Assembly: GCA_019096065.1 (NCBI GenBank)
Contig: JAGUCH010000009.1
Location: 4,350,001-4,414,000, forward strand
Reading direction: 5' to 3'
Source: Paracyclopina nana
Taxonomy: Eukaryota > Arthropoda > Copepoda > Cyclopoida > Cyclopettidae
DNA: 64,000 bases
Of this stretch, positions 6,001-46,239 are shown one piece after another. Under the pieces are notes generated by a model, which did no database searches, had not been told where the DNA came from, and saw only the letters and a program-made list of their open reading frames with translations. How positions within the stretch are numbered: the first letter of the stretch is position 1; every line of letters begins with the position of its first letter. The position numbers and the translations under genes are program-made.

Positions 6001-6187
6001 CCTCATTCACGCCACAAGCTACAGGCTTGTCTACAGACTTGTGGTCTCGGTTGATGAGGATGGCAAGACTCCCGACGGCAAAGTTAAGTATGTCTTCAAA
6101 TATCGCCACCACGACAACAAAGATCTCTCGAAGATGCCTTGCAAGCCCCAATTGGATGACCCCAAGATCAAGAACAGATTCTCTTAA
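3062..6187 (+). CDS. Element 1 second ORF: zinc-knuckle protein with RNase D-like fold lacking catalytic residues
   Basis: A 1041-aa ORF from ATG 3062 following pol. The N-terminus (about 1-170) is Pro/Ser/Thr-rich and looks disordered. A helical middle region (about 240-500) shares a TILIA...GVPP pattern with the element 2 protein. Residues about 600-780 align with the exonuclease region of element 2: KVAFGMVGESRL matches KVQFGIDMDLRKF, and HHASLAILSAL sits where element 2 has Y-x3-D. The DTE, Asp and Tyr/Asp residues are not present, so the fold may be kept but catalysis should be lost. Near the C-terminus (about 908-965) lie zinc-knuckle motifs (CPHCGATDH, CLEEGHNIANC, CPQCNKLGH). No signal peptide or transmembrane segment is visible, so it is not an envelope protein. 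Nucleic-acid binding is likely; the precise role is unknown. Confidence 0.8.
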   Translation: MSEKQDKNEPEPRPGPSGKKLINYKLGGIQITSVIDLTADDPTTRRQRRSTITPSTPEKKPKLAPPPATALSVATPLQAPKLETGLIYATPSTSYEPRVVFRTPMPPSTEAASQPENESFLDYSKRHQLPDDSMGIVIDSWSASSSSDSSAEIVPLPTTPKQTAPLTSDQILIGRRIPNPLLEKLLKDNYVLDKASKLISLKQLFPAINFDAREELQPEDDTNLQALERNTMTQSLNATATYFYNEILTVPAEEAAMAFRSPTILIAAPSSDYGVMKVGDHRTVQETLKRPMQAIYRDVFRLTCLTSGVPPLSVMMESHPELFFVVTADAQLQVSRLKSPKYIQPWDDDTIKAAEPLLNGLIKLCSAFNRVLLQSTRLKHMTDAAKEAMSHLGLSKQPDEGAPLLLQKFIQFAEQNPSGAKELMQEAAFPNPKVIQEIIEGVIPITQLPRAIYSMNSLASDITEITCKRALHLKDIKKAAASQLVWRMEKDEDCDARPCKIKFDDKFITTDCHNLDYQEHIFAHYSLKQARLDRTLREGNLECNPTPAEQIAIVTRQTCPTAWKSIMIDTDIVEEIKRQAVCNLYMSPWKPEELYKRCPQSDAPANGFTTLSLSTLTGKIVLVQVNSPGDGQPVECPIPWELQEIINSPQVVKVAFGMVGESRLRSIGLKPTNVVDLSNLVVLAFPPQKEVAAHQIQNSLHYYLEMSGSPTVTFQFRTPLPGKPEQKAPLKATVKIHPNQKDFSKPYELWDKDMKVHLKVTHHASLAILSALAAKDMIAAALPDDANALPFIHYILCLVEGKPRFGSIPKPPYQNWRPYGFGSVRNPLKQDQMLTTFTTAAKAAFVHSGGAVVRMLNDYENKFALDQHVIDPTFALRLTDLLGPLDNINYEDILKVLYKKSNCMLHPCPHCGATDHSVPTPTCLEIVQVCIYPQCLEEGHNIANCPMLEKRCPQCNKLGHLPSHHSKPFPQLMQEFYFACLIHATSYRLVYRLVVSVDEDGKTPDGKVKYVFKYRHHDNKDLSKMPCKPQLDDPKIKNRFS

Positions 6188-6222: not shown

Positions 6223-6592
6223 CTAATTGGTGCGGAGCCTTACGGACGACCCTCCCACTGAAGACCTCGACGGCCTCTACTTCAACCCACAGAGCTCTAC
6301 TATTGTGTATTATATGTCTCTATGTTTACCTTTTTATAGTATTCCCGCTTAAGCGTCAGCTGCGCTGCGCCTTTTAATCAATCGAGAATAAACAACCAAA
6401 CAAGAAGGAAGTCTTTGAAGTCTTTGACTTTATTGATCACAGTGTTACCGCCACTACCACCCTTTGCTACTGGAGCTGACATCTGTGCCAAGAACTGCTA
6501 GCCAGAGTTCTTGGATTGCTTCCATTATCGGGCTCGAGTCCGCCATTCCAGTGCCGGCCTCGCATTCCTTCCTTTCCGAGTTGGTCCTTCAG
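6223..6592 (+). repeat. Probable 3' LTR of element 1 and junction with host DNA
   Basis: This stretch has no coding potential that I trust. It carries one CTTAAG motif (6348) and an AATAAA (6387-6392), as expected for U3-R of an LTR, and then passes into DNA just before the Cys-rich gene. The LTR end could be near 6443 or later. No target duplication can be tested because the left junction is outside the window. Confidence 0.4.
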
Positions 6593-8523
6593 CTGCAAGA
6601 AGTACCTATTCACCAAATGCAAGAATAAATTCTACAAAAGCAAAATTACAGGGAAAACCTGCGCAAAGAAATGCCCTTTGTATTGTAATGATGCAGGTAC
6701 TAAGAAATGCAAAGGTCCCTACAACAAGAGGGTACGTCATAATTATTGTGTACTATATGCTAAAATGCAAATTTATCCAAACACTTTTATTTAAAAAGGG
6801 ATGTTATACTGGCGATATATGTATCCCAAGGCAACCAGGCTGCAAAAAATCATTTTGCCCCCTGTATTGCCCTTATGGAGAGCAAGAGTGCCCCTCGGGG
6901 TATTTTGACGATGGATGCCCCAAATCACCCAAATGTGTACCGAAGTTTGAGCAAAATGGCTGCCCAGTACATTGCCCAATTCTCTGTGGACCTGGCTTCA
7001 TAGAATGCCCTGGACTACTTGGCCCAGATGGATGTCCACTTGGCCCTACATGTAAACCAGAATTGGACCCAGTCACCAATACCACCAACACTTGTGACAA
7101 CTGTCCCAAGTCCACATTGTTGGCCAATGGGAGTTGTCCTTATATGGAGAGACCTTGTGCAAATTCTGTACCACCTGGATGCCCTCAGACTTACTCTTGC
7201 TTTCCTTTATTTGATTCAAACAACTGTAGGCAAGGGTGTCCGGAAACCTGTCCAGATGACACAATTTCTTGTCTGTTTCCTGCATATCCTGGTCTACCTT
7301 GCCTCTCATATGCAAATTGCTTGCCAAAATTGGATGCTTTTGGATGCCCACAAAAGTGCCTTTTTTCTTGTAATCGAAATGAGAAACGTTGCGCTCGACC
7401 AATGGCAGAAAATCCTACTTGCTGGGAAAATTTCTGCTATCCTGCCACAGATGAAAATGGCTGCCAACAGAGTTGTCCTTTTGGCTGCAAGCCCGATGAG
7501 AAAGAATGTCCATATTCACCCCAAGGATCATGTCCAAGTTTCAGTCAATGCTGGCATAAGTATGACTCTGATGGCTGCGAGTCGGAATGCAGCACAAGTT
7601 GCTACAACGGCGATAATATATGCAGAAGGTTCAAAAACGATACTTCCATTTGCACTGAAAGTTATTGCCACCCATCGACTGTAGTAGAGGGATGTCCAGA
7701 ACCTTGCCCAGATTTGCCCTGCAAACCTGATCAGCAGATATGTGCTAAAAAGAACTACATCGAAGGATGCCCTGACATTCAAATATGCGCTTACAAAGGC
7801 ACTGATGATTGTCCACAGCCTTGCCCACTGAATTGTGAAGTTGGGCAACAAATTTGCCACAAGCAAACTGACGAGAATCCCAATTGCTTTCAGCCATTTT
7901 GTGCCCCTTCAATGGACGAAAATGGATGTCCAGTCGCATGTCCAAACTTAACTTGCAGCCCTCTTCAGCAAAAATGCCCTGTCAAATCCACTTTTGAAGG
8001 GTGTCCCGCCATTGAGGCTTGTTATTCAAAGGGGACTGATACTTGTCCACTACTTTGTCCCCTGCAATGTGACCAAGATCAGCAGATTTGCTATGAAAAG
8101 AAAAACGAAGATTTCAGCTGCTCTCAGCCGTTTTGTGCCCCTTCAATGGACGAAAATGGATGTCCAGTCGCATGTCCAAACTTAACTTGCAGCCCTCTTC
8201 AGCAAAAATGCCCTGTCAAATCCACTGTTGAAGGGTGTCCCGCCATTGAGGCTTGTTATTCAAAGGGGACTGATACTTGTCCACTACTTTGTCCCCTGCA
8301 ATGTGACCAAGATCAGCAGATTTGCTATGAAAAGAAAAACGAAGATTTCAGCTGCTCTCAGCCGTTTTGCTTCCCAAAGGTCAACGAGAATGGCTGCCAG
8401 CTGAGCTGTCCAAACGTGACCTGCTTGACTACATTTGAGATAGCATGCACAGTCCCTGAACAAAATGGCTGCCCTGCCTTTGAATACTGCGCTAACAAAC
8501 TTGGAAACGGATGCTATTTATAA
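6593..8523 (+). CDS. Cys-rich 'GCP' repeat protein, secreted-type, 5' end missing
   Basis: Coding exons run about 6593-6731 and 6799-8523, with a 67-bp GT-AG intron (6732-6798, phase 0); joining them gives continuous Cys spacing. An upstream exon with ATG and signal peptide must exist, because the first exon opens at an acceptor (CCTTCAG) and no ATG precedes it. The protein is a chain of short repeats of about 40 residues built on CP..C......C and ENGCP / DGCP motifs, with almost no hydrophobic segment, typical of disulfide-rich extracellular or protease-inhibitor-like proteins. I cannot name the family. The C-terminal half contains a nearly perfect 78-residue internal duplication. An AATAAA lies at 8588-8593, 65 bp after the stop. 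The missing 5' exon lies either beyond element 1 or in an unrecognised short exon, so element 1 may sit in this gene's first intron. Confidence 0.8.
7900..8367 (+). repeat. Direct in-frame 234-bp duplication inside the Cys-rich gene
   Basis: Units 7900-8133 and 8134-8367 are the same sequence apart from one substitution that I can find (Phe to Val, STFEG versus STVEG). The length of 234 bp is exactly 78 codons, so the reading frame and the Cys pattern are kept. This is a very recent tandem duplication, or a region kept uniform by gene conversion. Confidence 0.95.
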
Positions 8524-14833: not shown

Positions 14834-15388
14834 CTAAAAGTCAGCTTTCTTCAAACGACGAGTTAAATATTTTTGCCGAGCAACAATGCCGCGAATTTCA
14901 TTGTGCAAATTTGCAGCTTCCACAGCTAATTCTGCGGATTTTGCAAACTGCTTTTGACTTTGCCGTAAGGAATTCGGCACCAAAATTCCGAACCATTTCA
15001 AGGGATCTTTGGCAGTTTTGACATTGTCACTTTCCTCTCCTTTTTTGTAAGCCTTTCGATTGGTCAAGCCAGAATCCAAATTTTCAATACTAATACCCTT
15101 ATTCTCCATTGACAAATAGTTGAATTTGACATTGATTTCTGAGCGGACACATTCACTTTTGTTGACTTTGATTTGAGCTTCAAATGGCTCCCAATCTTCA
15201 GAAGGCAACTGAAGACTCGAAACTGAGGTTGGTCCTCCAGACATGCTCTTTCTCGACCGAGCAAGTCCCATGAAGCCTTCCTTCATGGTTTGCTCCAGCA
15301 TCAGCTTGACATGGACCAAGTTCTGGCTCAAAAGCAACAGTTGCAGGGCTAGTTCATCCAATTCTTCATGAATGTCTTCCTTTGACAT
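14834..15388 (-). CDS. Ccdc115: CCDC115 / Vma22-type V-ATPase assembly factor
   Basis: An intronless 184-aa ORF. The C-terminal half carries the family hallmark DPLKWFGILVPNSLRQSQ, close to the vertebrate CCDC115 DPLNWFGILVP sequence, and the N-terminus is a helical LDELALQLLLLSQNL coiled-coil segment, also as in the family. Length agrees with vertebrate CCDC115 (about 180 aa). The protein is expected in the ER/ERGIC, where the Vma22-type factor helps assemble the Vo sector of the vacuolar proton pump. A minus-strand AATAAA at 14734-14729 lies about 100 bp past the stop. The gene starts 427 bp downstream of the 7TM receptor gene on the same strand. Confidence 0.92.
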   Translation of the reverse strand: MSKEDIHEELDELALQLLLLSQNLVHVKLMLEQTMKEGFMGLARSRKSMSGGPTSVSSLQLPSEDWEPFEAQIKVNKSECVRSEINVKFNYLSMENKGISIENLDSGLTNRKAYKKGEESDNVKTAKDPLKWFGILVPNSLRQSQKQFAKSAELAVEAANLHNEIRGIVARQKYLTRRLKKADF

Positions 15389-15814
15389 TTTCTTTTTTTG
15401 TAAATCACTTTCATTAGCATAAAAGTATAATTTACGGGAGTTCAGAAATACTTTCTTTACCTGCCAATTTACTTGAGAGACGAGTACGAGGAGTCTTTTC
15501 AGGTTTTATCTGCTTTCGAGAATTTTGTTGTCATTTCTTTTATTTACAAATGTCGAATAAGGAATAACAATCGGGAATTTCGCGGAACTTTTGTTTACAA
15601 TCACGCAACCCCCAAAGCAAAGCATTGAATATTTTGAGGGAGACAGGTTGTGTGCTTTCATTCAACTGTAGGTGCCTTTATTTTTGGGCAATTTTTTATG
15701 CTGGCAAAAGAGAGCAGTAGGCAAAAGGCATGTAGTTTCGCTCCTGTTTGGATTTTTTTTTATTTCGAAAATAAGGTTTAGATCATGCAACATTGATAGG
15801 AAAAGTGGCCTAGT
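15389..15814. other. Intergenic region between receptor gene and CCDC115
   Basis: This 426-bp stretch separates the receptor stop from the CCDC115 start, both on the minus strand. It is AT-rich and should hold the receptor 3' UTR and the CCDC115 promoter. No specific motif is recognised. Confidence 0.5.
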
Positions 15815-16356: not shown

Positions 16357-16361
16357 GATGA
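16357..16361. repeat. Target-site duplication GATGA, left copy
   Basis: GATGA directly precedes the left LTR start TGTTCGAG. The same five bases follow the right LTR at 27129-27133. A 5-bp duplication is usual for BEL/Pao integration. Confidence 0.93.
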
Positions 16362-16681
16362 TGTTCGAGTAATCACGAGAAGAATCAAACAATCGATCAA
16401 TGCAAGGCTCTGGTGAGCGAATCCGGACTGGCTGATCCCAAGATCGAGTGGAATGCTAACAGAATGTCTGTAAATGCTAATGTAGCTCGATTGGAATCAC
16501 ACTGAATAAACGTAGTCAAAATCTAGAGATCGAAAATAAGATGACTTTTATTGTCGATCGTACGAAATCTAGAATGCAACTGAAATAAAAAGCGGGAAAA
16601 GATGACAGTTTGACAGCTATTTTCCGCTTGGCTCAGCTTGTTGTTGTCGGTGCGTCGCATCTTGAGTACCATGTCTTCACA
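16362..16681 (-). repeat. 3' LTR of element 2
   Basis: 320 bp, read on minus from TGTGAAGACATGG to TACTCGAACA, with TG...CA ends. It contains AATAAA-type signals and is identical by eye to the other LTR. Transcripts starting in the 5' LTR should be cleaved here. Confidence 0.95.
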
Positions 16682-16692
16682 GTCCCCCTTGC
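16682..16692 (-). promoter_or_regulatory. Polypurine tract of element 2
   Basis: On the minus strand the purine-rich run CAAGGGGGA lies directly before the 3' LTR. It is short, but this is the position required for priming of plus-strand cDNA. Confidence 0.65.
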
Positions 16693-16805
16693 GACCTTCG
16701 CAACTTAGCTAGCTGAGCTTAATGATCATAATGAATTTAAAGAAACATGTATGTACAATGAATTTTCTAAAGAGGAGTATCTCCCTCTGCCTTTGTTTTT
16801 CTTCT

Positions 16806-19800
16806 TTACTGTTTTCGGTGCTTGTCAATCCTTCTTAGCGACATGCCATCTCTTTCTTTCAGCACCTTGAATTTCGCGTTCCTGTCCAGCGTGACGACCC
16901 CAACCGCATGTCTGTAGGCCACAATTCTTTTCTTGACGTGCAATTGTACCAGATCCCTCGACATGTGCATCTGATGGCCGTGGCCAAAGTCACCGCAGAG
17001 TGTGCACCTGATTGTGTAAAACGTGCATGCATCCGTTTTGTGTGCATTACTGAAGCAGTTCATGCAGTGAAGTTTGTCGTCACAGTCTTTCTCCTTGTGG
17101 TCATTTCGTCCACACTTGCGACAAGGGTGAGGCGTTTCAAGCCTCATCCCTTGTTCCATCGCTTCTGGTGCTGTCATTGCTCTCTCGATTGCGTCGTGCA
17201 CCACTCCTGGGTTGTGCCAGTTTTCTACGTAACTGACCATGTCTGTCTCAATTTCTGATACGTCTTTTCGTTCTTCACTTTTCAGGTACCACTTTTGTAA
17301 TTGAAATTCCTTGTCAAAGTCCCTGAAGTTTTCCACGATCGTTTTCTCCGTATTGTACTTGAGATTCGTGTATTTTAGTCCTTGCAGTCCATCGTCCACT
17401 TTTGTCTCCCGAGGGCGTCCGTGGCCCTCTAGGAGTGCTTCGTAGACTCTTATTGGTTGACCTCCAAACTTGAATGGTCGATCCCTCAACTGAGCGAGCC
17501 AGAACATCATGTAACCCCTGCAATCTGACTTTTCGTCTCCGCCCACTCGCAATACTGAGCTTGCTGCAACGAGTTCCAGACAGGCTAGGGGTGTGAATAG
17601 ATCCTGCCTGTCATAGTAGAGAATCTTCTCTTCGTACTTGTCCACATCGATCGCTCTGTGCTCTACTCTGTAGTCAACTTTTTGTATTTTGTTTTCGACA
17701 CCCATGATCATCAGAGCTCCATCTTTTCCTGACTTTGGATTGATCGAATTCATTTGTGGGTCTAGTAGCATCACTAGGTGTTGAGCATCCACCCAGTTAG
17801 TGACCTTGGCTCCGACCCTGGCGAACTTTCTTAGATCCATGTCTATGCCGAACTGGACTTTGCACACCCTCTTGTCGCTCAGTAGTCCTTTGATTCTCTG
17901 CGGTATCTCTTTGCCCATGATCTTATAGCCGACGAACATCACTCGCACCCCAAGTGCGATTCCATTCATTGCTCCGAAGTGTGCGTAAGCAAAGATGTCC
18001 CTGTGCTCGCCTACCGTGATTTCTTGACCTTCAATGTAAGCATTTTTGTATTTCTCAGACATTCCTTCGGTGTCAATTGTCATGATTCGAGTGTCCATTA
18101 TTTCTTTGAAGAATCCTTTTTCCTCCAGCTTTGCCTCGATCTCGTCCCAGTGCTCCGAGCAATACTCGTTCTTGGTGTCGTTTGTGCGTCCCAATATATA
18201 TGTGACTCGTTTCTTTTGATCGAAGAGGTCATACTTGGTCCCTTTTGCCATTGTGGCGTTTCTCAAGGCATCTTTTACTGTCAGTGGCGGGAATATATCT
18301 TCTTGTCTGTTGACGCATTCTTCTTTTAAAAATGGGTTTGTCGATTGGCATAGATGTATCTTGCACTTCTTTTTTGCGTATTCAACTGACCCTCCTGCTG
18401 CAATGATCATTCCAAATTCAACATCTGGGCAGTGTTTTGACGTTAGTTTGGGCTTCTTTTCATCCTCCATTGGGGGCTTGAAGTCCATTTTTCCTCCCGA
18501 GCTCGACCTTGACCTTCTTTTTGGGACGTAGATCATGTCTTCGCCTGGTACTTTTTCGTAGTATTCGTCCTCTGCTCCAGCTGGAATGTAGTTGACTAAT
18601 CCTGTTGATGTTGAGGATGTGCGTCTTGCAGGTTGGCCTTTTTCCTCCACCTCCATAGGTTCTGGGCTCAAACGACCGGGGTTCGATGCCCTTTGAACCT
18701 CAACAATTTTTTCAATTGTTTGGATTACGACTTTTTCTCTAATTGGCATCATGTCTTCTGGTGTTTGCTCAGCCTTGTCCTCGATGTGTATCATCTTGAC
18801 GTTTTTGCCTTGCAACTTGCATGCCTCCTTCAACCAGTCAAGTGCCTCCTGCAAACTTTCTCTCGTCCATATCCTGTATCCCTTCTTAAATGCTGCCAAC
18901 TGCTTTACTTCTTCATTCGTCAGTACATTGGCGGTTCTTCTGAGGTAGAGCGTGTTTGCATTTCTGCCATCATTCAGTACTTTTGCGATCTCAGGCATTG
19001 GCGCCATTCCTTTCCCGCTCTCGATGGCCTTGAACAGTTCTCTTACTTCCATGCCTGAGTCCATTGATCCCATTGCTTCCTGTTCCAAAATTTGCCTCGC
19101 GGCTAGGAATTGAAGCCTCTCTTCGTCTTCCAATACATTTTGAGGTGGGTATTTGCCGTATTTATCTACTGTCCTGACATACTGTGGCCCGTGAGAGATT
19201 AGCATCGCCTCGTTTGGTGGTACGCCATGATAGAGTTGAATCGCTCTTATCAAAGCTTTCAGGAGATCGATTTTTTGGCCCTTCTTACGGCTGCTGTTTG
19301 GCATGTGCAGCTTTTCATCCCGTGGTCCAAAGTTAAGCGTGCTACCTAGAATGATCGTGCCTGGGTCATGATAGTACCTTTCGAAGATCTCCCTCGTCTC
19401 CTCCGTGTTGTAGTCGTCATAGATGACAACTCTGGCGCCTGTTCGCTCTTCCCACCTCCTTATCACCTCCTCGAGTGGAGGATCAGGTGGTTGATGCTCC
19501 GATCTTGGGCTAGTCTCATCCTGGCTACTGTCTGACGTTATCCTTGGTCCAAGCCTTGCCTTAAGTTTGGGCGTCAAGCGTCCGGGGCTTGATCGCTCAA
19601 CTTTAGGCGTTCTTGCTTCATGCGATGTCGATGCGCTCTTCTCCCGGCTTCTTTGATTGGCGTTCTCGGCCAATTTTCGTTCCTTTTCCCTGCGCTCGGC
19701 TTCTCGTCTTCTTTCCTCCTCCCTCTGGATGTCTCCAGATCTCGATCGATCCAGTCTTCTCCTCGCATCCCTTTCTCTCGAGGTACTGCGACTTCGTCCT

Positions 19801-20165
19801 CGGCGATCTCGTCCCGATGGCATTTCGTTGACTATTAGAACTTCGCCGATCGCTCTTGTTATATTGTCTAGGTTTTTGTTCAATAGTGAGATAAATTTTA
19901 CTGCGATCGACTTAAATCTACTCACAATCGTAGTAATTAACTCTCCTCGGCGATGGATTGCGTTTAAAAATGACCTCGGCGAGGTCGAACTCGTTTTTCC
20001 CAATTTTGGCGGTTGAATTTCGACGTGTTGTGATTTGGCGAATTTTTTGTTTTCTTTTCTTATTTCCGGTTTAATTTTGTAGGTTGCGTGTTTGTTTTTG
20101 TTTACTTGGTTTTGACTTTCAGTTTTTGTGCGATGTGAGGTTTTTTCATTAGGCTTGGTCTTCAT
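16806..20165 (-). CDS. Element 2 second ORF: RNase D-like DEDDy 3'-5' exonuclease with zinc knuckles
   Basis: About 1119 aa from the ATG at 20165 (the frame continues 6 bp upstream to a TTG). The N-terminal 220 residues are very basic and Arg/Ser/Glu-rich, probably disordered and RNA-binding. A helical region with a GVPP motif (about 290-490) is shared with element 1. Residues about 690-865 have the DEDDy exonuclease signature: ExoI IDTEG (Asp about 698, Glu 700), ExoII FGIDMDLRKF (Asp about 777) and ExoIII YDRQDLFTPLACLEL (Tyr about 850, Asp about 854, spacing Y-x3-D). Motif spacing matches RNase D/WRN-type domains. Residues about 1013-1073 hold three zinc knuckles (two C-x2-C-x4-H-x4-C, one ending in His). 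No signal peptide or TM is seen, so it is not an Env. Activity is inferred from motifs only; proofreading, RNA trimming or host-defence evasion are open possibilities. Confidence 0.85.
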   Translation of the reverse strand: MKTKPNEKTSHRTKTESQNQVNKNKHATYKIKPEIRKENKKFAKSQHVEIQPPKLGKTSSTSPRSFLNAIHRRGELITTIVSRFKSIAVKFISLLNKNLDNITRAIGEVLIVNEMPSGRDRRGRSRSTSRERDARRRLDRSRSGDIQREEERRREAERREKERKLAENANQRSREKSASTSHEARTPKVERSSPGRLTPKLKARLGPRITSDSSQDETSPRSEHQPPDPPLEEVIRRWEERTGARVVIYDDYNTEETREIFERYYHDPGTIILGSTLNFGPRDEKLHMPNSSRKKGQKIDLLKALIRAIQLYHGVPPNEAMLISHGPQYVRTVDKYGKYPPQNVLEDEERLQFLAARQILEQEAMGSMDSGMEVRELFKAIESGKGMAPMPEIAKVLNDGRNANTLYLRRTANVLTNEEVKQLAAFKKGYRIWTRESLQEALDWLKEACKLQGKNVKMIHIEDKAEQTPEDMMPIREKVVIQTIEKIVEVQRASNPGRLSPEPMEVEEKGQPARRTSSTSTGLVNYIPAGAEDEYYEKVPGEDMIYVPKRRSRSSSGGKMDFKPPMEDEKKPKLTSKHCPDVEFGMIIAAGGSVEYAKKKCKIHLCQSTNPFLKEECVNRQEDIFPPLTVKDALRNATMAKGTKYDLFDQKKRVTYILGRTNDTKNEYCSEHWDEIEAKLEEKGFFKEIMDTRIMTIDTEGMSEKYKNAYIEGQEITVGEHRDIFAYAHFGAMNGIALGVRVMFVGYKIMGKEIPQRIKGLLSDKRVCKVQFGIDMDLRKFARVGAKVTNWVDAQHLVMLLDPQMNSINPKSGKDGALMIMGVENKIQKVDYRVEHRAIDVDKYEEKILYYDRQDLFTPLACLELVAASSVLRVGGDEKSDCRGYMMFWLAQLRDRPFKFGGQPIRVYEALLEGHGRPRETKVDDGLQGLKYTNLKYNTEKTIVENFRDFDKEFQLQKWYLKSEERKDVSEIETDMVSYVENWHNPGVVHDAIERAMTAPEAMEQGMRLETPHPCRKCGRNDHKEKDCDDKLHCMNCFSNAHKTDACTFYTIRCTLCGDFGHGHQMHMSRDLVQLHVKKRIVAYRHAVGVVTLDRNAKFKVLKERDGMSLRRIDKHRKQ
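20147..20165 (-). promoter_or_regulatory. Overlap of gag-pol stop and second-ORF start
   Basis: The second ORF's ATG (20165-20163) lies inside the last codons of gag-pol, whose TAA stop is at 20151-20149: a 17-nt overlap in a different frame. A further out-of-frame ATG overlaps the stop as TAATG. This layout suggests termination-reinitiation or another coupled-translation mechanism rather than splicing. Confidence 0.6.
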
Positions 20166-23100
20166 CTTCAATGAGTGGTAGATTTTGGCACAAGGCTAGT
20201 TGCCTTATGCCCCTTTCCAGTAATCCATGCTTGACTGTTCTCACCATCGCAGTTCTAACTTTTCCGTCTTCACCAAGTAAAATTCGCTCAACTGTTGCAA
20301 CCTCCCATCTGGGTCGATGTTTTTTCAAGTCTTCTGTGGCGACCACCACCCTGTCGCCCACATGTAAGTTTTCTTTTTCATTTTGCCATTTGGCCCTAAC
20401 ATGCATTGTCTGCAGGTAGAAGTCCATCCATGTCTTGTTCATCTTGCTCATGTGGTCTGCCAAGGCTTTCAGCTTGTCTGAGAATTGGGCTGACACCTCC
20501 ATGAACGTTGATTCGCCCGCTCTTCCACTTATCAGGTGGTTAGGCGTGATGATCTCATAGCCATCTTTTCCTTTCAGAACTGCCAGTGGCTTGTTATTCA
20601 GTCTTTCTTCCGCCATTGTTACCATCGTCCTGAACACCTCGTAATCGTGGGTCCCATGTTCGCAGGCTTCCAAGGCCCGCTTAACAAGTTTGACGTGGCT
20701 TTCCACTAACCCATTCGCCTCATGATCTCTAGGCGGGTTAAAGTACCATTCTCTTACTTTGTCGCTCACGGTGAGTTGAACTTTTTTCCAGTCGACAACT
20801 TCTACCTTTTCTTTCTTTTTCTTTTCAGGTATTCGATTGACTTTGACGCCCAGTTTTTCAAATGAGCCTTCATTGTCGCTGTAGATGACACTGACTGGTC
20901 CTCTTCTAGCTGTGATTCTTTGGAGTGCCATCACCAGTGCTTCTGTGCTTCGTCCAAGTGTTGCTTCCAACGTCACAACTTTTGTTTGCAGGCAGACGGT
21001 CACTAACACATATGCTTTCTGCTTTTCTTTTTTCAGCTCGACATGATAGAAGCCTGTGAAGTCCACCGCGATTTTGCTGCACGGTTTGATGTTTTCTAAT
21101 TCCAGGTCTGGCGCTGGGCCCATGATTTGTGTTAGCATTTTTGACCTCCACCTAGTGCACTGGGGACATTGCGCGCTGACTTTCTTAGCCATTTTCCTCA
21201 CATGTGGGCCTCCAAAAGTCTCCGTCAGTCGCAGCCACAACTGGTCAGCAGCCAGATGTCCACTCGTGACATGAATGCGCCACACAATTAATGTGAAGAC
21301 CCATGATTTTTCCATCCAAATGGGGTAAATCCTGCTTTGTGGTAGGTCTTTTTGTTTCGCGTTTCTCGTTAGTAATCTTAAAACGCCGTCCTCATCGAAC
21401 ACTGGGCTGTGTTTTCTTATTTCCTTTGTTTGCCACAGTCCTGTTTTTTCATAGTTCGTTATTTCTGATTCCAGAGTTCTCCACTGCCCCAAGATGACCA
21501 GCTCTGTCACTGTCTCTGCGATCAGGTCTAGTGGCATTGAGTCCTCCTTCTCTGGTAAGTTCTTGACCCTTGTGATTCCTCTCACCAAAATTGGCCACCT
21601 ATACGCATTCTCTTTCAATTTGAGCTTTTGCATTCTTCTGTACACTTGCCTTGCTCTTGCTACTCCAACTTCCTTATTGAGCACGACTTTGTGATCCAGA
21701 ATATTTCCTTTTTGGTCGCTCTTGATATTTACAGGGCGTCCGAGGCCCGTTAAAAAGATTTTGTCGATGCTTCCAGCCAATTCGTCTTCTGTAACCTCCA
21801 GCTCGTATTTTGGCCACTCTGACTTCTCCTTTTTCCAATACTCTGGGCCATTCCAATATTTTTCGTCCTTTAGCAGTTCCGAGACCGTGCAGCCTCTTGA
21901 CGCGAGGTCACTTGGATTGTCAAGTGTGTTGATGTAATTCCACTGCTCGAGCACTGTCGTGTCGCTAATTTCGATTGTTCTGTTTCTGATGAAAACTTCT
22001 CTTTCCACTCCAGGTTTCCTGATCCAGCATATGACTGGTTTGTTGTCTACCCAGTAGTGCATGTGTTCTCGTTTGATGTGGAACATCTCCCTGAGGCGGT
22101 TTGATAGCCTTGCTGACATCAACGCTCCTGCAAGCTCTACCTTGGGAATTGTGTGCTTCTTTGGTTTTTGTAGCTTCGCTTTCGTGGTGAGTATGTTGAT
22201 GTTGCCACTGCCATCGTCCACACTCACCGTACAGCCAAATCCAATGTCTGATCCATCACTGGCAAAGTGCAGTTCGCACCCATCGGCCTTTGTGGCTACC
22301 TTCCGAGGGTAGCTCACGTTGGAGGCCTCTTCCAATTGACCGACCCACTTTTCGAATCTTTTCAGTGCCTTTTTTACCAGGTCATTTTCTATTTTTGTGA
22401 GGTCCGTGTCCCATTTAATTTTCACCTCTTTTTCTGCCATACAGATCCACTGGAAGCTTTCTCTCCCGAAGATCATGAAGGGCGCCAGGATTCCCAGCGG
22501 GTCGAAGACTTTGTGGAGTTCTGCTAATATTGTCCTTTTCGTTATTTTTTGCAGGTCTGGTTTGACAAATTTATAACCAAGTCGATCTTTCTCAGTGTCC
22601 CAACTGATGCCTAGTGTGGAGTGCAGCACTTGTCCTCCCTCACTTCCTTCCAACGTCAAGGACTTTTCCTGGAACTCTTCAGGTATGCTTTTCATGACTG
22701 CCTTTGAGTTTGATACGAATTTCCTTAATTTCATTCCGCATTTTTCCAGGAGTGTTGTAGCTTCCTTGGTGACCCTGATCGCGGTCTCTTCATCCGGGAA
22801 GGCCACCAACATGTCGTCCATGTATATCTGGATGTGCTCTCTGAGCTCTTGGCTGCCAAACTTGTGCAAGTGATGCTTTACCACGAAGTTGGCTACGCTC
22901 GGTGCTGCTCTGAGACCGAATGGCCACCTCTTGAATTGGTAGGCCTCTCCTAGCACCCATATACGCAGATATTTTCTATCTTTTGGTGGGACTCCAATCA
23001 TGAGATACATCTTTTCAATGTCTGCTGCTACTGCAACCTCGCCAAACCTGAATTTTATGAGCACGTCAAATATATCTTCCAGGAAGTTCGGTCCTGTGTA

Positions 23101-26100
23101 CTGGCAGTCATTTATGCTCACCCCGTCGAATTTTTGTGCCGCGTTATAAACGAATCTAAATTTTGTTGTTAAGCTCGACCTTTTTGCAACACAAAAGAAC
23201 GTCAGCCAAAAACCGTGCCTCTGCTCATTTATTGGGACTTTTTCAATAATGTCCATCTCCAGATACTCCGCCATCGTCTTCTGCACTGCTTCGTGCACTT
23301 CTTTATCCGCTTTGTGCGTCATATCAATTCCAGCCTGGATTCTCTTCGCCTTTTCCCAATTCTCTGGAAGATTCGGTGGGTCTTCGATCCAAACGATATC
23401 TACCACGTAGTGTCCTTTTTCGTCCTGATGGATTGATTCTTGCATCTTCTTCAGAGCGATCTCATCCGCCAGTGTTAATCTTTTTGATCTCGACTCGTCC
23501 CTGTCAATTCCCAGGGCCTCAATTCCATTGCTTCTGTCCACAATGAACTGCAATTCGCTGTCCTTGAGAGCCATGCCTGCATTAAATTGGCCCCAGTCAC
23601 TGACCATCATGGACACTTCGTGTCCCCCCGTCTTGGGATGGTAAAGCATTGTCCATCCGAGTGGGGTTTTTCTGACTAATGGGCCATTGTGGACGTATAT
23701 ATCCTGGATGCTTCTCATCAAATGCAAGTTATCGAACCCCAGAAGCATCCTCACTGGTCCTTCGACTGGTCTTGGAAAGTTGATCTTGCTAATCTCTTTG
23801 TAGCTGACTTTTATGTCATTTGGATCTACAGGTTCGATCGCTGCTGGGAGTCCAAAAGTCTTTGCTTTCAGTTTGAACCACCGTCTTCCTCCTTTCGCTC
23901 TCACAAAGACCTCCGTTTGGTATGACTTTCTTTTTATGACATCTCCATCCCCCACAACGTGGACCTTCAGCATTTCTTCCTTTCCTTGAAGCTCCAGATC
24001 TTCTTTAAGTTTCGGGTCTATGATTGTCAAGCTTGATCCTTCATCCAGCACCATGTTTATTGGTAGATATGTGGCAAAGTCGCTGGTTGCCGCTATTTCT
24101 ATTGGCAAGGTTCTCCAGGATTTAGTGTCACTTGCAGTTAAGGCAATGACATCTGGTTTTTCTGTTTGGATCTGACTTCCGTGGTCAGATTCCTGACTAT
24201 TTGCTTCCTTGCTGGGTTGACGTCCGAGGTCCCCTCCAGTGAAGCCTATTGCCTCTTTTGACAACTGATCCAACTTTTTCTCGAGTGCAGGTAACCGTGC
24301 CAATCTCTGTTCAATGCTTGCTAGCAGTGCTGCTGTCACGTCTCCTTCGGAGGCTCTTCTTGTGTTGTTCACATGCAGCTTGCTATGATGATCACCTGCA
24401 CCGCACTTGATGCAGTTCTCCCTGGCCTTGCAGTTCTCCACTGTATGCTTTCCTCGAATGCATTTGAAGCAGATTCCCGCTCCAACCAGCTTTTTCTTGA
24501 TATCTTGTATGCTGTAGTTGTCCCAGCTCTCGCATTTTAGAGCTTTGTGATCATGTACACCACATATCACGCACGGGTCTTTCTGTTTGTGCGCACCCAG
24601 GAACACTGCGTCGTCATCTTCGTCATCACTGTCCTCGTCCGAGCTCGCTGAGTACAACTCGTCGACTGCCATGACTACTTCTCTTCCTTTTTTGTTGTAG
24701 AACTTGACGTATCTTTGATTTGTTCTCTTTCCATATTCAGTCTGGCCTCCATAGCTTCCCACATGGCTCTCCGATGGCAACTTGCTTTTCAAGGCTTCTC
24801 TTGTATTTCTGGCTTTCATCTCGCTCATTCCCTCCTGAGTTCTTTCTCTAGCCCACGTGAAGAACAACCTCAACGAGTTCTTTGATTGGAATTTTGCGAT
24901 TCTGAATGCATTGTAGTCTTGTTTTGTATCCGGTGTCATCTTGATCATTCCCAACAGGTGATCCTCGCCATCCTTTGGATTCTTTCCGGATCTGATGTTG
25001 AGGTCGACCATTTCTTCCAAGATATTCACCATATCACCGATTGTGTTTGGTGCTTTCACATCCACTGGTGGCATTCTAGCCAAGTGCAGCATCTGTTTCG
25101 ACAGTTGTTCCGCTGCTTCCCCGTGGTTGCTACCATATTGTGCATCCAACGCCTTGAGTGCTTTCACCAATCCCAATCTGCTGCAGTCATACCTGCCAAT
25201 TTTTCTGTAGGCCTGTCCGCCAGTCCATGCTTTCAGTGTTGCCATCTTGTCGAACCAATCCAAATTTTTCTTTTTGATGATTTTCGCGTGAACAAGTTCC
25301 TTGAAGGCCCTGTATTTGGCTGGATCTTCTCCATCAAAGTAGCCCTTCATGTTGTCCCTCACGGTGTCTGCCGCAGCAGTGACATCGTAGTATTGCGTCA
25401 AGTTTTTGCCATTGTAGAGGTCTGTCCAGTCGACTTCATTTGACACGTAGTCTTCCCAGTCATCCAGGACAGTGTCTTTTGCCAGATATGTCTCCTCCAG
25501 GGTCAGCTTGTCCTTGTAGTCGGCTCTTGTGATATTTGCTGACTGCTGCCATGTTGGTGTTCCCGGAATTTGACTATAATTTCCGAACTTTGGCGTTTCC
25601 GCTGCAGCCCCAGATGGTGTTGAAAAGTTGGGGTCACCAGGGTATTTGAACATCTTGCCCCTGGCTCCTCCTCTACCTCTTCCAGCAGTTCCTTTCTTGG
25701 GGTTATTGATGAATTCCATGCTGCTTGCCGCCTGTCTTTTTTCCGTGACCATTGCTTGCAAATCCACATCTTCTCCCCGCGATCTAGCCTCCCTCAATTG
25801 CTTTTCTGCTTCTGCCCTTTTTGCTTCCGCATCTTGAGCCTTGGCTACCAAGGCCTCGTGCTCAACTTTTGATGCGCTGCGAGCTGCCATGGCTAGGTCG
25901 TTGATTCTCTCTGACATCTCATAATGCTCCGTGACCCAATCGATGAGGTAGTTCTCCTCGTCATCATCATCATCGCCACCCGTTGTTTGATTGGCATCTT
26001 GCATGGTGACGTCTCTATTTTCTTCCTTTTCTTCCTCTCGGAGCATCTCCTCGAATTCTTTTTGCTCCTTCTTTTTGTGATTCTTTTCCGCGAGGTACTC

Positions 26101-26679
26101 CACAGCATTGGCCTCTTTCATGAGAGGTTCCACGCTTTCCGCCTTGAACTTTGCGACTACTTGCGCGTCTTCTCCCTTGATGCCCTCCAACAGCCTTGCT
26201 GCCTCGGTGGCAATCTCCATTTTTAACGAGTTTGCCCGCCTCGCGATCATCTTAAGCTTTCTCGCTGGTTTGTCCGTGCTAATTTCTTTTTTGATTGCCT
26301 CCAGGTTTGAGTAGTACTCTGACGCGTCGACTTTCCATCTCTCCACCATTGTGGCCGGCGAAACCTTGACTAGTTCTTTAATGGTTGCCTCCATTTCCAC
26401 GCTGGTGTTTGCTGCCATGTCCTCCAGAATTCTAATGCTTCCGGAGGACTCCGCTGAGTCTTCCCTGAATCTATTGAGGTCCTCTCTAATTTCGACCCTG
26501 GAGCTGTTGATTGTGGTATCGTTAAATCCCCACCTTTTGTCTGGTCTTTTCGGGGATTTCTGCTTGTACGTTACTCCACGTCCCAACGTTCTCTTCCCTC
26601 CAACTGAGTAACCCTGTAACCAGCCTGGGGGTTTCTTGATTCTTTTTGGTCTTTCTTCCTTCTTTTCCTTGTCAGACAT
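20149..26679 (-). CDS. BEL/Pao Gag-Pol polyprotein (element 2)
   Basis: 2176 aa from the ATG at 26679, 118 bp after the primer site. The Gag part includes a coiled, charged N-terminus and a DUF1759-type region (about 420-580). Three zinc knuckles follow at about 702-770 (CVICGVHDHKALKC, CFKCIRGKHTVENC, CIKCGAGDHHSKLH). The aspartic protease has VLDEGSS near 877, i.e. D-E-G in place of the usual D-S/T-G. Reverse transcriptase spans about 1130-1400 with YMDD near 1286. RNase H follows (SDGSD near 1476, KVELAGAL). Integrase has an HHCC module (about 1803-1846) and the DDE triad in VDFTG (about 1873), SDNEG (about 1935) and VESH (about 1993). A basic C-terminal domain follows. Gag and Pol are in one frame with no internal stop, so Gag and Pol must be made as a fusion and then cleaved. 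Replicates the element by cytoplasmic reverse transcription. Confidence 0.96.
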   Translation of the reverse strand: MSDKEKKEERPKRIKKPPGWLQGYSVGGKRTLGRGVTYKQKSPKRPDKRWGFNDTTINSSRVEIREDLNRFREDSAESSGSIRILEDMAANTSVEMEATIKELVKVSPATMVERWKVDASEYYSNLEAIKKEISTDKPARKLKMIARRANSLKMEIATEAARLLEGIKGEDAQVVAKFKAESVEPLMKEANAVEYLAEKNHKKKEQKEFEEMLREEEKEENRDVTMQDANQTTGGDDDDDEENYLIDWVTEHYEMSERINDLAMAARSASKVEHEALVAKAQDAEAKRAEAEKQLREARSRGEDVDLQAMVTEKRQAASSMEFINNPKKGTAGRGRGGARGKMFKYPGDPNFSTPSGAAAETPKFGNYSQIPGTPTWQQSANITRADYKDKLTLEETYLAKDTVLDDWEDYVSNEVDWTDLYNGKNLTQYYDVTAAADTVRDNMKGYFDGEDPAKYRAFKELVHAKIIKKKNLDWFDKMATLKAWTGGQAYRKIGRYDCSRLGLVKALKALDAQYGSNHGEAAEQLSKQMLHLARMPPVDVKAPNTIGDMVNILEEMVDLNIRSGKNPKDGEDHLLGMIKMTPDTKQDYNAFRIAKFQSKNSLRLFFTWARERTQEGMSEMKARNTREALKSKLPSESHVGSYGGQTEYGKRTNQRYVKFYNKKGREVVMAVDELYSASSDEDSDDEDDDAVFLGAHKQKDPCVICGVHDHKALKCESWDNYSIQDIKKKLVGAGICFKCIRGKHTVENCKARENCIKCGAGDHHSKLHVNNTRRASEGDVTAALLASIEQRLARLPALEKKLDQLSKEAIGFTGGDLGRQPSKEANSQESDHGSQIQTEKPDVIALTASDTKSWRTLPIEIAATSDFATYLPINMVLDEGSSLTIIDPKLKEDLELQGKEEMLKVHVVGDGDVIKRKSYQTEVFVRAKGGRRWFKLKAKTFGLPAAIEPVDPNDIKVSYKEISKINFPRPVEGPVRMLLGFDNLHLMRSIQDIYVHNGPLVRKTPLGWTMLYHPKTGGHEVSMMVSDWGQFNAGMALKDSELQFIVDRSNGIEALGIDRDESRSKRLTLADEIALKKMQESIHQDEKGHYVVDIVWIEDPPNLPENWEKAKRIQAGIDMTHKADKEVHEAVQKTMAEYLEMDIIEKVPINEQRHGFWLTFFCVAKRSSLTTKFRFVYNAAQKFDGVSINDCQYTGPNFLEDIFDVLIKFRFGEVAVAADIEKMYLMIGVPPKDRKYLRIWVLGEAYQFKRWPFGLRAAPSVANFVVKHHLHKFGSQELREHIQIYMDDMLVAFPDEETAIRVTKEATTLLEKCGMKLRKFVSNSKAVMKSIPEEFQEKSLTLEGSEGGQVLHSTLGISWDTEKDRLGYKFVKPDLQKITKRTILAELHKVFDPLGILAPFMIFGRESFQWICMAEKEVKIKWDTDLTKIENDLVKKALKRFEKWVGQLEEASNVSYPRKVATKADGCELHFASDGSDIGFGCTVSVDDGSGNINILTTKAKLQKPKKHTIPKVELAGALMSARLSNRLREMFHIKREHMHYWVDNKPVICWIRKPGVEREVFIRNRTIEISDTTVLEQWNYINTLDNPSDLASRGCTVSELLKDEKYWNGPEYWKKEKSEWPKYELEVTEDELAGSIDKIFLTGLGRPVNIKSDQKGNILDHKVVLNKEVGVARARQVYRRMQKLKLKENAYRWPILVRGITRVKNLPEKEDSMPLDLIAETVTELVILGQWRTLESEITNYEKTGLWQTKEIRKHSPVFDEDGVLRLLTRNAKQKDLPQSRIYPIWMEKSWVFTLIVWRIHVTSGHLAADQLWLRLTETFGGPHVRKMAKKVSAQCPQCTRWRSKMLTQIMGPAPDLELENIKPCSKIAVDFTGFYHVELKKEKQKAYVLVTVCLQTKVVTLEATLGRSTEALVMALQRITARRGPVSVIYSDNEGSFEKLGVKVNRIPEKKKKEKVEVVDWKKVQLTVSDKVREWYFNPPRDHEANGLVESHVKLVKRALEACEHGTHDYEVFRTMVTMAEERLNNKPLAVLKGKDGYEIITPNHLISGRAGESTFMEVSAQFSDKLKALADHMSKMNKTWMDFYLQTMHVRAKWQNEKENLHVGDRVVVATEDLKKHRPRWEVATVERILLGEDGKVRTAMVRTVKHGLLERGIRQLALCQNLPLIEDEDQA

Positions 26680-26796
26680 TCGTCTCCGGCGTCCGTGGCC
26701 TTCTGACTACTTTGTCTTGGTCTTGTCAAGTCCCTTTGACTGGGCAAGTCCCCCCGACTTGACAGTCTTCTTCTGTTCTCCTTGTGTGAGTTTACC

Positions 26797-26808
26797 CGTT
26801 GGGCGCCA
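26797..26808 (-). promoter_or_regulatory. Primer-binding site, tRNA-Lys type
   Basis: Directly after the 5' LTR the minus strand reads TGGCGCCCAACG, which is complementary to the 3' end (with CCA) of arthropod/animal tRNA-Lys(CUU) as I know it. The match seems to stop after 12 nt. Confidence 0.8.
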
Positions 26809-27128
26809 TGTTCGAGTAATCACGAGAAGAATCAAACAATCGATCAATGCAAGGCTCTGGTGAGCGAATCCGGACTGGCTGATCCCAAGATCGAGTGGAA
26901 TGCTAACAGAATGTCTGTAAATGCTAATGTAGCTCGATTGGAATCACACTGAATAAACGTAGTCAAAATCTAGAGATCGAAAATAAGATGACTTTTATTG
27001 TCGATCGTACGAAATCTAGAATGCAACTGAAATAAAAAGCGGGAAAAGATGACAGTTTGACAGCTATTTTCCGCTTGGCTCAGCTTGTTGTTGTCGGTGC
27101 GTCGCATCTTGAGTACCATGTCTTCACA
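26809..27128 (-). repeat. 5' LTR of element 2
   Basis: 320 bp, identical by eye to the LTR at 16362-16681. It should carry the element's promoter. Reading the host receptor frame into this LTR adds about 53 foreign codons and then a TAG at 26970-26972. Confidence 0.95.
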
Positions 27129-27133
27129 GATGA
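27129..27133. repeat. Target-site duplication GATGA, right copy
   Basis: GATGA follows the right LTR end TCTTCACA and matches the five bases before the left LTR. In the host gene it lies in the codons for Phe-Ile-Phe at the end of TM4. Confidence 0.93.
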
Positions 27134-28985: not shown

Positions 28986-31900
28986 TTAGTGTTTTCTTCT
29001 CCTCAGAGCCGAATGCCAGCCTCGGGCCTCGGCCTCGGGCACGAAACGAATGTTTGAACTTTGCCCCAACAATTGAGGATATTTGTGAACATTGTTCACC
29101 TCAACACCTTGGTAGCCCCGAACTTCACCGAGGCTGCTCAGCTCCGCTCGCTGGCTGGGAGTCCACTCATAATTGAGCCCAGCGAGGCCCTTTTTCACGG
29201 CCTCCGCCTCTTTTCGCCAGGCTGAGGCCACAGCCTCCTTGAAGGCCTTTTTGAACGCCCATCGGTTGGCCACTCGCTTTTCAATGTTGTACAGAATGCA
29301 AATGGTGGAGGCCCGATTATGGGCACACAACACCTTGGCCTCGGCGTTGTTCCGGATTCCAGCCTCGGTGCTGATGTTGTAGGAGCCTGACAACCGCTGC
29401 AGTTCATTGAGGTCGGAATTGAAGCCGAAATCCTTGAGGAAGTAGAACTCCTCTTGGCCACCATGACTGGCCTCCAGAATGGTCGAAGCATTGAGGATGG
29501 ATGCGAATACGGATTGCACAACGTCACCTCTGGATCCATCAAGGATAGTGACAAGTGCTTTGCCATCCAGGTCTGACAACAGCATGCCTTGGCCAAAGCT
29601 GGACGATCTCACAGCCAACCTTGAGTTGAGGACAGGCTCAAGCTTTTCTGGTGACAAGCTGGGACTTTTCAGCAGGTTTGGGTTGCGCAAGTTGTCCTCG
29701 CTTTCTTGATGTTGGCTCATCAGGCCAACTGAGGTGGCAAACTGGGTCGAGGCCATTGAGGCTCCTTGGTGAGGCACGTGGTGAGACTTTGAAGTGTAGG
29801 TGGACCCCATGAAGCTGTTCATGTTCAGGCCAAACATGTTCAACCAATCACTCATTTCTGAAAATGAGAACATAATTATAAAAGTGTCCTTATACAAGAT
29901 TTAAAATAAGGTTTTTCAAGTACCTGTCATTGATTCCGATGCCTTGTTCAAGTTGATGGGATCGTTGTTGAAGAAGCGATAGCTGAACACTTGGAAAGGA
30001 CTCTTGAGCGATCCTGGCCTGGCCACATTTGTCCAATCTGGAGTCATCCATTGCCCAAGGACTGGATCATACACACGATCGCCAATGTGTACCAGATGCG
30101 TGTACTGGTCAATGAGTCCTCCGGCAAAGTCAATGTTGAGATCCATGGCAGGATTGGTATCACGGATCACTTGCCCGTAAGGCGATCGCAGCATCTCTTT
30201 GACCAGCCTTCCTTTGGGATCAAATACTGCGATCGGCGATCCCAAGTGATCAGTGCCAATGTAGTAACGCGCGTCCGGAGTATCCATAGCAATCACATGT
30301 CCAGTTTGATCATCATAGATCATATGGTAAGTGCGAGCAGCTTTTGGATAATGAATGTGAGTCACAGACTGGTTCAGGTAGGGATTGGCGTAGATGAACT
30401 GGACCACGTTTCCTCGATGATCCCTCTTGGCAATGATTCTGCCAACATCATCATAGAAGAAGTTGAGGCTGAACCGGCCAGCCTCGGTGGCCGAGGTCAT
30501 TTGACCCATAGCGTTGTACTTGTAATTGGTCTCTCCACGTTTGATGACATAACCACGCTCATCGTAACTCACGTAGTCCTGTGAGTTGACCATGGCAATT
30601 CTATCACCGCCATCCATGACAAAGCTCGTCAACTTTTCACCTCGCCTCACCCCAACAACATTGTTATTGATGTCGTGCTCGTAAACCCAATCCTGGCTAG
30701 CTTCGGATTTCACCGACTTCAAGCTCAAGTCTTTGGTGTACTCGTAAATCTCCGAAATTGGACTGCCCTTGGCCAACGTGATGCTCTTGCTCCGGATCAA
30801 ATCCAGATCCTTGGAGTATTCCAACTTGAGCTTGAATTGCTCGTAGCCATTGATCCGGATGACAACCTCCTCCAGTCTGCCATAGCTGTCCAAATCCCGA
30901 GTGAGGCTGAAGCTCTTGGCAATGTCCTGGATCACAGTTTTCCTCAGTGACTCGAACCTGATCCTCAAGTCCTTGATGCCTTCCAATTTTCCCATCCTTG
31001 AGTTGTACTTGTACATGACCACCTCCGGCTCTTGCTTGCCTATCTGAGCAGTCAACCCACCCAGCCTAGCTGATCCATCGTAGGTGTACTTGATGTTGAT
31101 GTCATCAAGGACCAGATCTTTGTTGGTTTTGTAATTGGTGGTCACTTCTTTCAAGAGGCCAAAATGGTAGATCATGTTGGTGTTGAATCCGAAATGGGAG
31201 TCTTCCTCGGACACCTCAATATTTTTGATCAAGTTGCTGTTGGGGTAGTAGTCATAGTCAATGGATCTGGAGTCACCAAGGACAGAGTCCAGCTTCATCT
31301 TGTCGTAGACGAAAACCACCTTTCCGGACTGCTCCGGCAATGTGAGTGCCAAAAGCCTTCCACCAAAGTCATAATGGAGCTCATAGGGCTGTCTGGACCA
31401 AGGAGGCAAGTAGGTGAACTTCTGCACTCCCAAAGACATTTGACTGTTGAGCCCATGAATGTGGCCCCTTGGGGTCATAATGTATTCAAGGCCACCAAGG
31501 TCGTTCTTGCTGAACACAAAAGTTCCTCCCGAAGGAATGGTGACTTTTTCTGTTTCTGTCGATGATCCTAATTCGAGAAAAAATTAGCCCTTTATTTCAA
31601 TGTCATGAGGAGGAAAATGTATATAGTACCTTTATAGGTGAAGCTCATTTTTGATGATCGACCATGATTGATGGACTGGATTCGGTTTTCCCTGTCGTAC
31701 TCATACGAGCACTCCAAATCTCCCCACTTCCACGTTTGAGGAAGGCCAAGGCCATTTTTCTCCAGAAACACAGATGAGAAAAGGCCCGAGGGCATCATAC
31801 TGATTCTGGAGCCAGACACATTGAGCATGGCCTGGGTGGACTCCAGCATGAGTATCTGCGAATCCGTGACCTGGTTCAGCTCCACCGTCATCACAATTTC

Positions 31901-46020: not shown

Positions 46021-46021
46021 T

Positions 46022-46220: not shown

Positions 46221-46239
46221 ACTGGAAAGACTCGGCTGA

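Follow-up and report, generated by a model that had tools for sequence, protein, structure and literature searches.

A second gene in a BEL/Pao retrotransposon clade of Paracyclopina nana encodes a predicted DEDDy exonuclease with Gag-like zinc knuckles

In the copepod Paracyclopina nana (assembly GCA_019096065.1) we analysed 64,000 nucleotides of contig JAGUCH010000009.1 (positions 4,350,001 to 4,414,000, hereafter the window), which contain a BEL/Pao retrotransposon with long terminal repeats (LTRs). Its Gag-Pol open reading frame (ORF1) is followed by a further one, ORF2. ORF2 is an old, retained gene of one BEL/Pao clade, here called group A, and is under purifying selection, as follows from its linkage to and co-inheritance with the integrase of the clade and from the ratio of non-synonymous to synonymous divergence (dN/dS). 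The gene itself, its conservation, fold, intact active site, purifying selection, integrase co-inheritance and zinc knuckles form the computed basis on which we consider it reasonably probable that ORF2 is a second BEL/Pao gene encoding a separate DEDDy RNA 3′–5′ exonuclease with a Gag-like triple knuckle. All results come from one genome.

The original prediction, made from the sequence of the window, located the ORF2 frame correctly (Table 1) and described in it the five DEDDy residues in order. All five are present: D698 and E700 in IDTEG, D777 in FGIDMD, and Y851 and D855 in YDRQDLF, and they are at the expected places in 27/27 and 29/29 group A copies. The 29-copy alignment omits 10 of the 39 group A loci, which have broken or partial frames; near copies were removed from alignments A1 (L017, L031) and A2 (L017, L030, L031). 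The prediction needed refining for the third aspartate, where the catalytic residue is the second D of FGIDMD, invariant in the 29 copies, while D775 is an Asp in 12 and replaced in 17. The spacings, given as about 77 and 74 residues, are 77 from E700 to D777 and 74 from D777 to Y851. The motifs also align across the family, with all five catalytic positions among the 33 invariant columns of 293 in an alignment of 27 sequences. PF01612 is matched individually by 19/27 members at E ≤ 0.1 (best 1.4e-5) and by the domain of this copy alone at 24.6 bits, where the cut-off is 23.6. The invariant columns and the independent PF01612 matches go beyond chance. From its intact active site ORF2 would be a two-metal DEDDy 3′–5′ exonuclease.

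The predicted model of the domain has the DnaQ/RNase H-like exonuclease fold that had been anticipated, and structures resembling it include proofreading domains of DNA polymerases, WRN, and Nibbler, EXD1 and Egalitarian chains; a longer model of ORF2 (pLDDT 65.8) has low quality beyond the domains. When sequence profiles are compared, WRN (E 0.019) and EXD2 (E 0.035) come closest among solved chains. No HRDC match was obtained for ORF2 (E ≤ 1), nor for any of the 26 sequences of A2, one of which is the present copy (E ≤ 0.1). The earlier assignment to an RNase D/WRN-type domain therefore stands as regards the DEDDy superfamily, WRN, PF01612 and the fold, and falls as regards RNase D proper; sequence and model support a DEDDy-superfamily exonuclease-fold protein. 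Neither NCBIfam nor a single-sequence search of the PDB gave a match for ORF2, residues 600–1110 matched none of 7996 scored candidate proteins elsewhere, and no relative was confirmed in viral contigs (two pattern stretches) or genome contigs (44 stretches). By hydropathy scan only, no consistent membrane segment was found in the 29 ORF2s; six reach 1.6 over 19 residues, and the peak in this copy is the ExoIII helix. RS/SR pairs in residues 1–224 number 12–17 across the present copy and its four nearest relatives.

Absent from the original prediction were the zinc-knuckle tail of ORF2 and a homologous ORF, at 3062–6187, of the other BEL element in the window. The 12 Cys/His of the knuckles align in 29/29 copies. 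A strict CX2C pattern finds three knuckles in 5/29 and two in 24/29, where the middle knuckle is longer. They align, in identical order, with the knuckles of the element's own Gag (hhalign 73.5%, E 2.9e-5), and from this likeness a common origin of the two is plausible, not proven. Against solved structures the best match is LIN-28 (E 0.0022), followed by Trypanosoma brucei RNase D (TbRND, 0.0064) and Gag (0.036).

The identification of the element as BEL/Pao is borne out by its coding region and its ends. Pao peptidase, reverse transcriptase (RT), integrase and DUF5641 lie within a single Gag-Pol ORF, and the element has paired LTRs, a target-site duplication (TSD) and a primer-binding site (PBS). 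In a Pfam search run as two pieces, Peptidase_A17, RVT_1 and DUF5641 exceed the cut-off, with rve (28.0 against 32.6, E 2.8e-6) and Integrase_H2C2 (24.0 against 25.5, E 4.2e-5) slightly under it. A search with the LTR gave 12 matches; by eye these fall into six pairs, each spaced by about 10.4 kb and each with an ORF2 inside.

As a marker of the clade we used the piece of integrase around rve (20800–21402). Among the 150 integrase matches listed, 38 form a block at at least 46% identity, the rest being at 36% or less save one short fragment at 45%. Linkage was checked for 59 of the 150 rows: a group A ORF2 lies downstream on the same strand of 36/38 block integrases and of none of the next 21. 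For the two remaining block integrases a YDRxDxF pattern is seen by eye 3.1 and 1.7 kb downstream, and judged from these patterns all 38 elements appear to carry ORF2, whole or in part. One orphan piece of a group A ORF2 (G000 contig C6, 3460835–3461779, minus strand; 43% identity, one stop) has no clade integrase upstream. Trees of integrase and exonuclease for 21 of the 29 copies have 12/18 splits in common, deep ones among them, and the pairwise identities are correlated (Spearman 0.875, Mantel 0/999).

By simple Nei–Gojobori counting, dN of the exonuclease is 0.004–0.28 in 22 pairs (0.03–0.13 in 19), and dS exceeds 1.7 or is saturated in 21 of them; in the recent pair L029/L030 its dN/dS is 0.04. 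Separately, in ORF2 residues 1–230 (window 19494–20165, minus strand, and relatives) dS is mostly about 1, with a range of 0.7–2.4 where computable, leaving aside L029/L030 and L015/L017; over the remainder of ORF2 most pairs are saturated, so that dS is higher there than in residues 1–230. The lower dS may reflect codon bias in a stretch rich in R/S/K/E, or else a further constraint acting on the RNA.

The start of ORF2 was compared in copies with readable upstream sequence, where the first ATG is not necessarily the start. Here it overlaps the ORF1 stop by 17 nucleotides (nt) in another frame, and in five close copies the overlap is 17–23 nt. In the eight copies L011–L018 the upstream frame stops 23–48 nt ahead of the first ATG, and in L012 and L013 it is the same frame; exceptions are L020 (overlap 68 nt), L024 (gap 89 nt) and L026 (gap 11 nt). 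Because the upstream frame ends before the first ORF2 ATG in L011–L018, a frameshift fusion of ORF1 and ORF2 was rejected as a general mechanism. The junction layouts argue for ORF2 being made as a separate protein, for which reinitiation or a spliced RNA would account.

The ORF at 3062–6187 follows the pol of a second BEL/Pao element, the A17 match of which (121.9 bits) spans the window edge. It scores 79.2 bits against the ORF2 profile and 27.0 with the knuckles masked (best of 200 shuffles 3.5), and aligns with ORF2 colinearly over exonuclease and knuckles (hhalign 99.0%, E 4.7e-18). We refer to this ORF and its relatives as group B. Against the group A domain profile, three group B copies reach 17.6, 38.9 and 20.9 bits in their exonuclease regions, which 0/200 shuffles attained in each case, and the alignment of these regions, taken without the knuckles, matches that of group A over 248 columns (hhalign 99.3%, E 2.3e-19). 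Homology is opposed by several results: Pfam finds no family in the ORF at E ≤ 10 (one piece matches Not1 at 0.15), the PDB gives only a chance-level match to a virus capsid (E 0.021), and the exonuclease profile scores 13.9 bits against the whole ORF, with the best shuffle at 7.2. On balance of these alignments the group B ORF is homologous to ORF2, and its active site appears lost in the three copies read.

In those three copies, out of 44 loci, D698 is replaced by Y/Y/H, E700 by S/T/Q and D855 by T/V/Q, while D777 corresponds to E/D/E and Y851 to H/Y/Y. None has D-x-E or Y-x3-D at the motifs, though the alignment is distant and single columns may be off. At the DNA level the YDRxDxF pattern of ExoIII occurs within 400 bases of the matched stretch in 39/39 group A loci, broken ones included, and in 0/44 of group B; genome-wide it has 57 hits, against 24 for a reversed control. 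The 44 loci derive from 50 matching rows, and 36 have frames of 1000–1443 amino acids (aa). Among the matches listed, 37/44 lie within 8 kb downstream of a BEL A17 domain and 7/44 were not reached from any A17 place in the list. Viewed from the 150 A17 places listed, the 8 kb downstream hold a group B ORF2 in 37, a group A ORF2 in 2 and neither in 111, in a tally that drew on 33 of the 39 group A loci.

The idea that ORF2 is limited to one BEL clade thus had to be corrected: it is true of the version with an intact active site, and the other BEL element of the window has a homologue. Because that homologue sits behind the pol of a second BEL group, ORF2 is, by these alignments, older than the group A clade. 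Loss of the active site in group B would be simpler than gain in group A. Strict retention of the active site in one branch, against its apparent loss in a related one, makes it probable that the element uses the extra gene, which would then be no stray passenger.

We also looked for a source among six host DEDDy loci, which were read exon by exon. The ORF2 profile fits L042 best (20.7 bits), the others scoring about 1 or less; the best PDB match of L042 is EXD2 (1.2e-19), and no knuckles were seen in it with Pfam. L041 has HRDC and PMC2NT, the RRP6 domains (Pfam), L043 is a MUT-7/Nibbler homologue, L044 is Egalitarian-like and L045 EXD1-like; the profile does not match L043 or L045. For a claim of capture from a host gene the match to L042, best of the six, is too weak. 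Together with Teneurin, the homologues of RRP6, Egalitarian, EXD2, MUT-7/Nibbler and EXD1 mark the genome as that of an animal; the SL1 exon pattern of nematodes was not found in it with up to 1 mismatch allowed, and the Rfam models SL1 and SmY had no match, in searches whose controls had none either.

If ORF2 is a separate exonuclease acting on RNA, as we prefer, it would be translated as a protein of its own from an ATG that lies at the Gag-Pol stop or shortly behind it, its knuckles and basic N-terminus would hold RNA, and the exonuclease would trim RNA 3′ ends in trans. At a guess, its target may be small or messenger RNA of the host, or else RNA of the element itself. An RNA substrate is favoured by analogy, because of the TbRND-like knuckle layout, the Gag-like knuckles and the separate ORF. 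Since the group B protein seems to have lost its active site in the copies read, RNA binding may be the older, shared job, with cutting retained in the group A clade. Several points weigh against this picture. The PF01612 score of the whole ORF (21.5) is below the cut-off; the structural fit of the predicted model is tied among many nucleases, DNA exonucleases included, which bears on the RNA substrate; and three well-supported shallow splits of the integrase tree are missing from the exonuclease tree, which bears on strict co-inheritance. The low whole-ORF score would also suit a recently captured passenger gene or a chance motif match, an explanation contradicted by conservation, fold, selection and old co-inheritance and in our view highly improbable.

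An attack on host silencing, in which ORF2 would be a silencing suppressor that shortens or degrades small RNAs of the host or the precursors of these, is a special case of the RNA exonuclease reading and a tentative possibility. Animal DEDDy proteins function in small-RNA pathways or descend from them (MUT-7 and Maelstrom are treated in the accessible part of PMC5408684), Nibbler and EXD1 chains match the model, and the RNase D of T. brucei is a trimmer of guide RNAs (PMC7797062, accessible part); however, there is no sequence link to a small-RNA protein, the profile fitting the EXD2-like L042 and neither L043 nor L045. It would seem unlikely that the enzyme is packaged through its knuckles to edit or trim complementary DNA (cDNA), or to remove non-templated ends before integration. 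Gag-like knuckles could carry ORF2 into particles, and the structural matches include polymerase proofreading domains and WRN, but a proofreader would be expected beside RT, whereas ORF2 is outside Pol, lying beyond the ORF1 stop or overlapping with it in a different frame, and in the group B copies read a protein of this kind lacks the active site. We likewise give little credence to a mainly structural RNA-binding protein, serving RNA export, packaging or localisation in the manner of Egalitarian or the CERV of Cer1 with catalysis secondary, in view of the five catalytic residues in every intact group A copy aligned and the ExoIII pattern at every group A locus. A broader proposal, that many BEL/Pao lineages here carry an ORF2 of one descent, made up of an N-terminal domain, a DEDD-fold domain and a Gag-like triple knuckle, live in one clade where it degrades host silencing RNAs and an inactive RNA binder in the others, is one we hold to be doubtful.

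Related arrangements are known outside BEL/Pao. The bdelloid rotifer LTR elements Juno and Vesta, and Athena elements, have a DEDDy ORF3 (Rodriguez et al, 2017; PMC5408684) which, like ORF2, is an extra ORF beside gag and pol that encodes an RNase D-like DEDDy exonuclease, with a proposed role in 3′-end processing; a Cys-His-Cys motif is noted for Vesta2 and Vesta5 ORFs. The rotifer LTR clades named in the accessible part of that paper are Juno, Vesta, TelKA and Mag, with no BEL/Pao among them. Compared with rotifer ORF3 as described there, ORF2 differs in its strict DEDD (29/29), triple Gag-like knuckle, deep co-inheritance and a second group in which the active site appears lost. Terminons also carry DEDDy ORFs (PMC6431247, accessible part), and a DnaQ-like exonuclease is called a well-known accessory domain of LTR elements in the accessible part of PMC6338049; in PMC5348765, which it cites, the word exonuclease does not occur. 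The claim that no BEL/Pao exonuclease ORF has been described agrees with a survey of open-licence literature by titles and abstract openings, which found none among the papers listed, is not proof of absence and had Repbase outside its scope; the rotifer ORF3 is nonetheless a precedent in LTR elements. In the main text of a BEL/Pao survey (PMC3118150) 'exonuclease' does not occur; according to its accessible part, few BEL/Pao elements carry env and the usual length is 4.2–10 kb. Elements with env resemble this one in having an extra ORF beside gag-pol, which here is of nuclease fold.

Among cellular proteins, TbRND (PDB 7c42–7c4c) likewise has CCHC fingers C-terminal to the exonuclease, which raise RNA binding and cutting; it trims guide RNAs and has four fingers, with a linker of 28 residues (PMC7797062, accessible part), whereas ORF2 has three knuckles about 115 residues past the domain and a long N-terminal part. 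The sequence match between the two is confined to the knuckles, the fold is tied with many others, and the layout is likely convergent. EXD2 and WRN are too weakly alike to prove a source. Egalitarian, EXD1 and Maelstrom are DEDD-fold RNA binders that kept the fold and lost the metal ligands, Maelstrom and EXD1 being inactive (PMC5408684, accessible part), a parallel to group B; they are cellular and no sequence link has been shown.

Table 1. Window coordinates of the two BEL/Pao elements and of the parts of ORF2.
Feature	Position	Strand	Remarks
BEL/Pao element	16362–27128	−	10,767 bp
5′ LTR	26809–27128	−	320 bp, TG...CA; identical to 3′ LTR; TSD TCATC at 27129–27133
PBS TGGCGCCCAACGGG	26790–26808	−	adjoins 5′ LTR; assigned from position alone
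ORF1, Gag-Pol polyprotein	20149–26679	−	2176 aa, BEL/Pao type (Pfam)
Gag zinc knuckles ×3 in ORF1	24373–24573	−	CCHC, CCHC, CCHH
Integrase core (rve) in ORF1	20860–21084	−	
ORF2	16806–20165	−	1119 aa; ATG at 20165, TAA at 16806–16808; intact, 0 internal stops
ORF2 residues 1–224	19494–20165	−	basic, Arg/Ser-rich, poorly conserved; K+R 25%, 13 RS/SR in this copy
ORF2 residues 225–365	19071–19493	−	conserved N-terminal alpha/beta domain; block pLDDT 70–90
ORF2 predicted DEDDy exonuclease domain, ~residues 690–900	17466–18098	−	
ExoI	18066–18074	−	D698 (18072–18074), E700 (18066–18068); 29/29
ExoII	17835–17837	−	D777; 29/29
ExoIII	17601–17615	−	Y851 (17613–17615), D855 (17601–17603); 29/29
ORF2 zinc knuckles ×3, residues 1015–1067	16965–17123	−	CCHC, CCHC, CCHH
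Purine tract GCAAGGGGGAC	immediately upstream of 3′ LTR	−	
3′ LTR	16362–16681	−	320 bp, TG...CA; TSD TCATC at 16357–16361
Second BEL/Pao element, 3′ part of pol	3–2357	+	DUF5641 E 1.8e-11; A17, H2C2 under cut-off at open end
ORF2 homologue of second BEL element	3062–6187	+	1041 aa
Exonuclease-like region of ORF 3062–6187	~4739–5491	+	catalytic residues apparently lost
Three knuckles of ORF 3062–6187	~5777–5971	+	

Near the element the window also holds a Teneurin gene (28986–38397, minus strand) with NHL and YD-shell domains by Pfam and EGF-like repeats by eye, and, near the 3′ LTR, a gene matching Vma22/CCDC115 (14837–15505, minus strand, E 1.4e-17). Elsewhere there is a Cys-rich repetitive ORF of 670 aa (6511–8520, plus strand) with a 234-bp tandem repeat at 7762–8229 and no Pfam match, and an imperfect short repeat array at 46015–46242 with AAACAGCTGA units at a spacing of 21–43.

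To our knowledge few LTR elements carry enzymes outside Gag-Pol. The present element suggests that nuclease capture has occurred in BEL/Pao too, besides the rotifer LTR and Athena elements. If the reading of one descent with active and inactive branches is true, we would know of no earlier BEL/Pao accessory gene like ORF2, and the two branches, one active and one inactive, would be a natural comparison for learning what a retroelement gains by capturing a nuclease. A nuclease gene under strong selection alongside pol, together with an apparently inactive homologous group in the same genome, offers a paired system for testing the value of an exonuclease to a retroelement.

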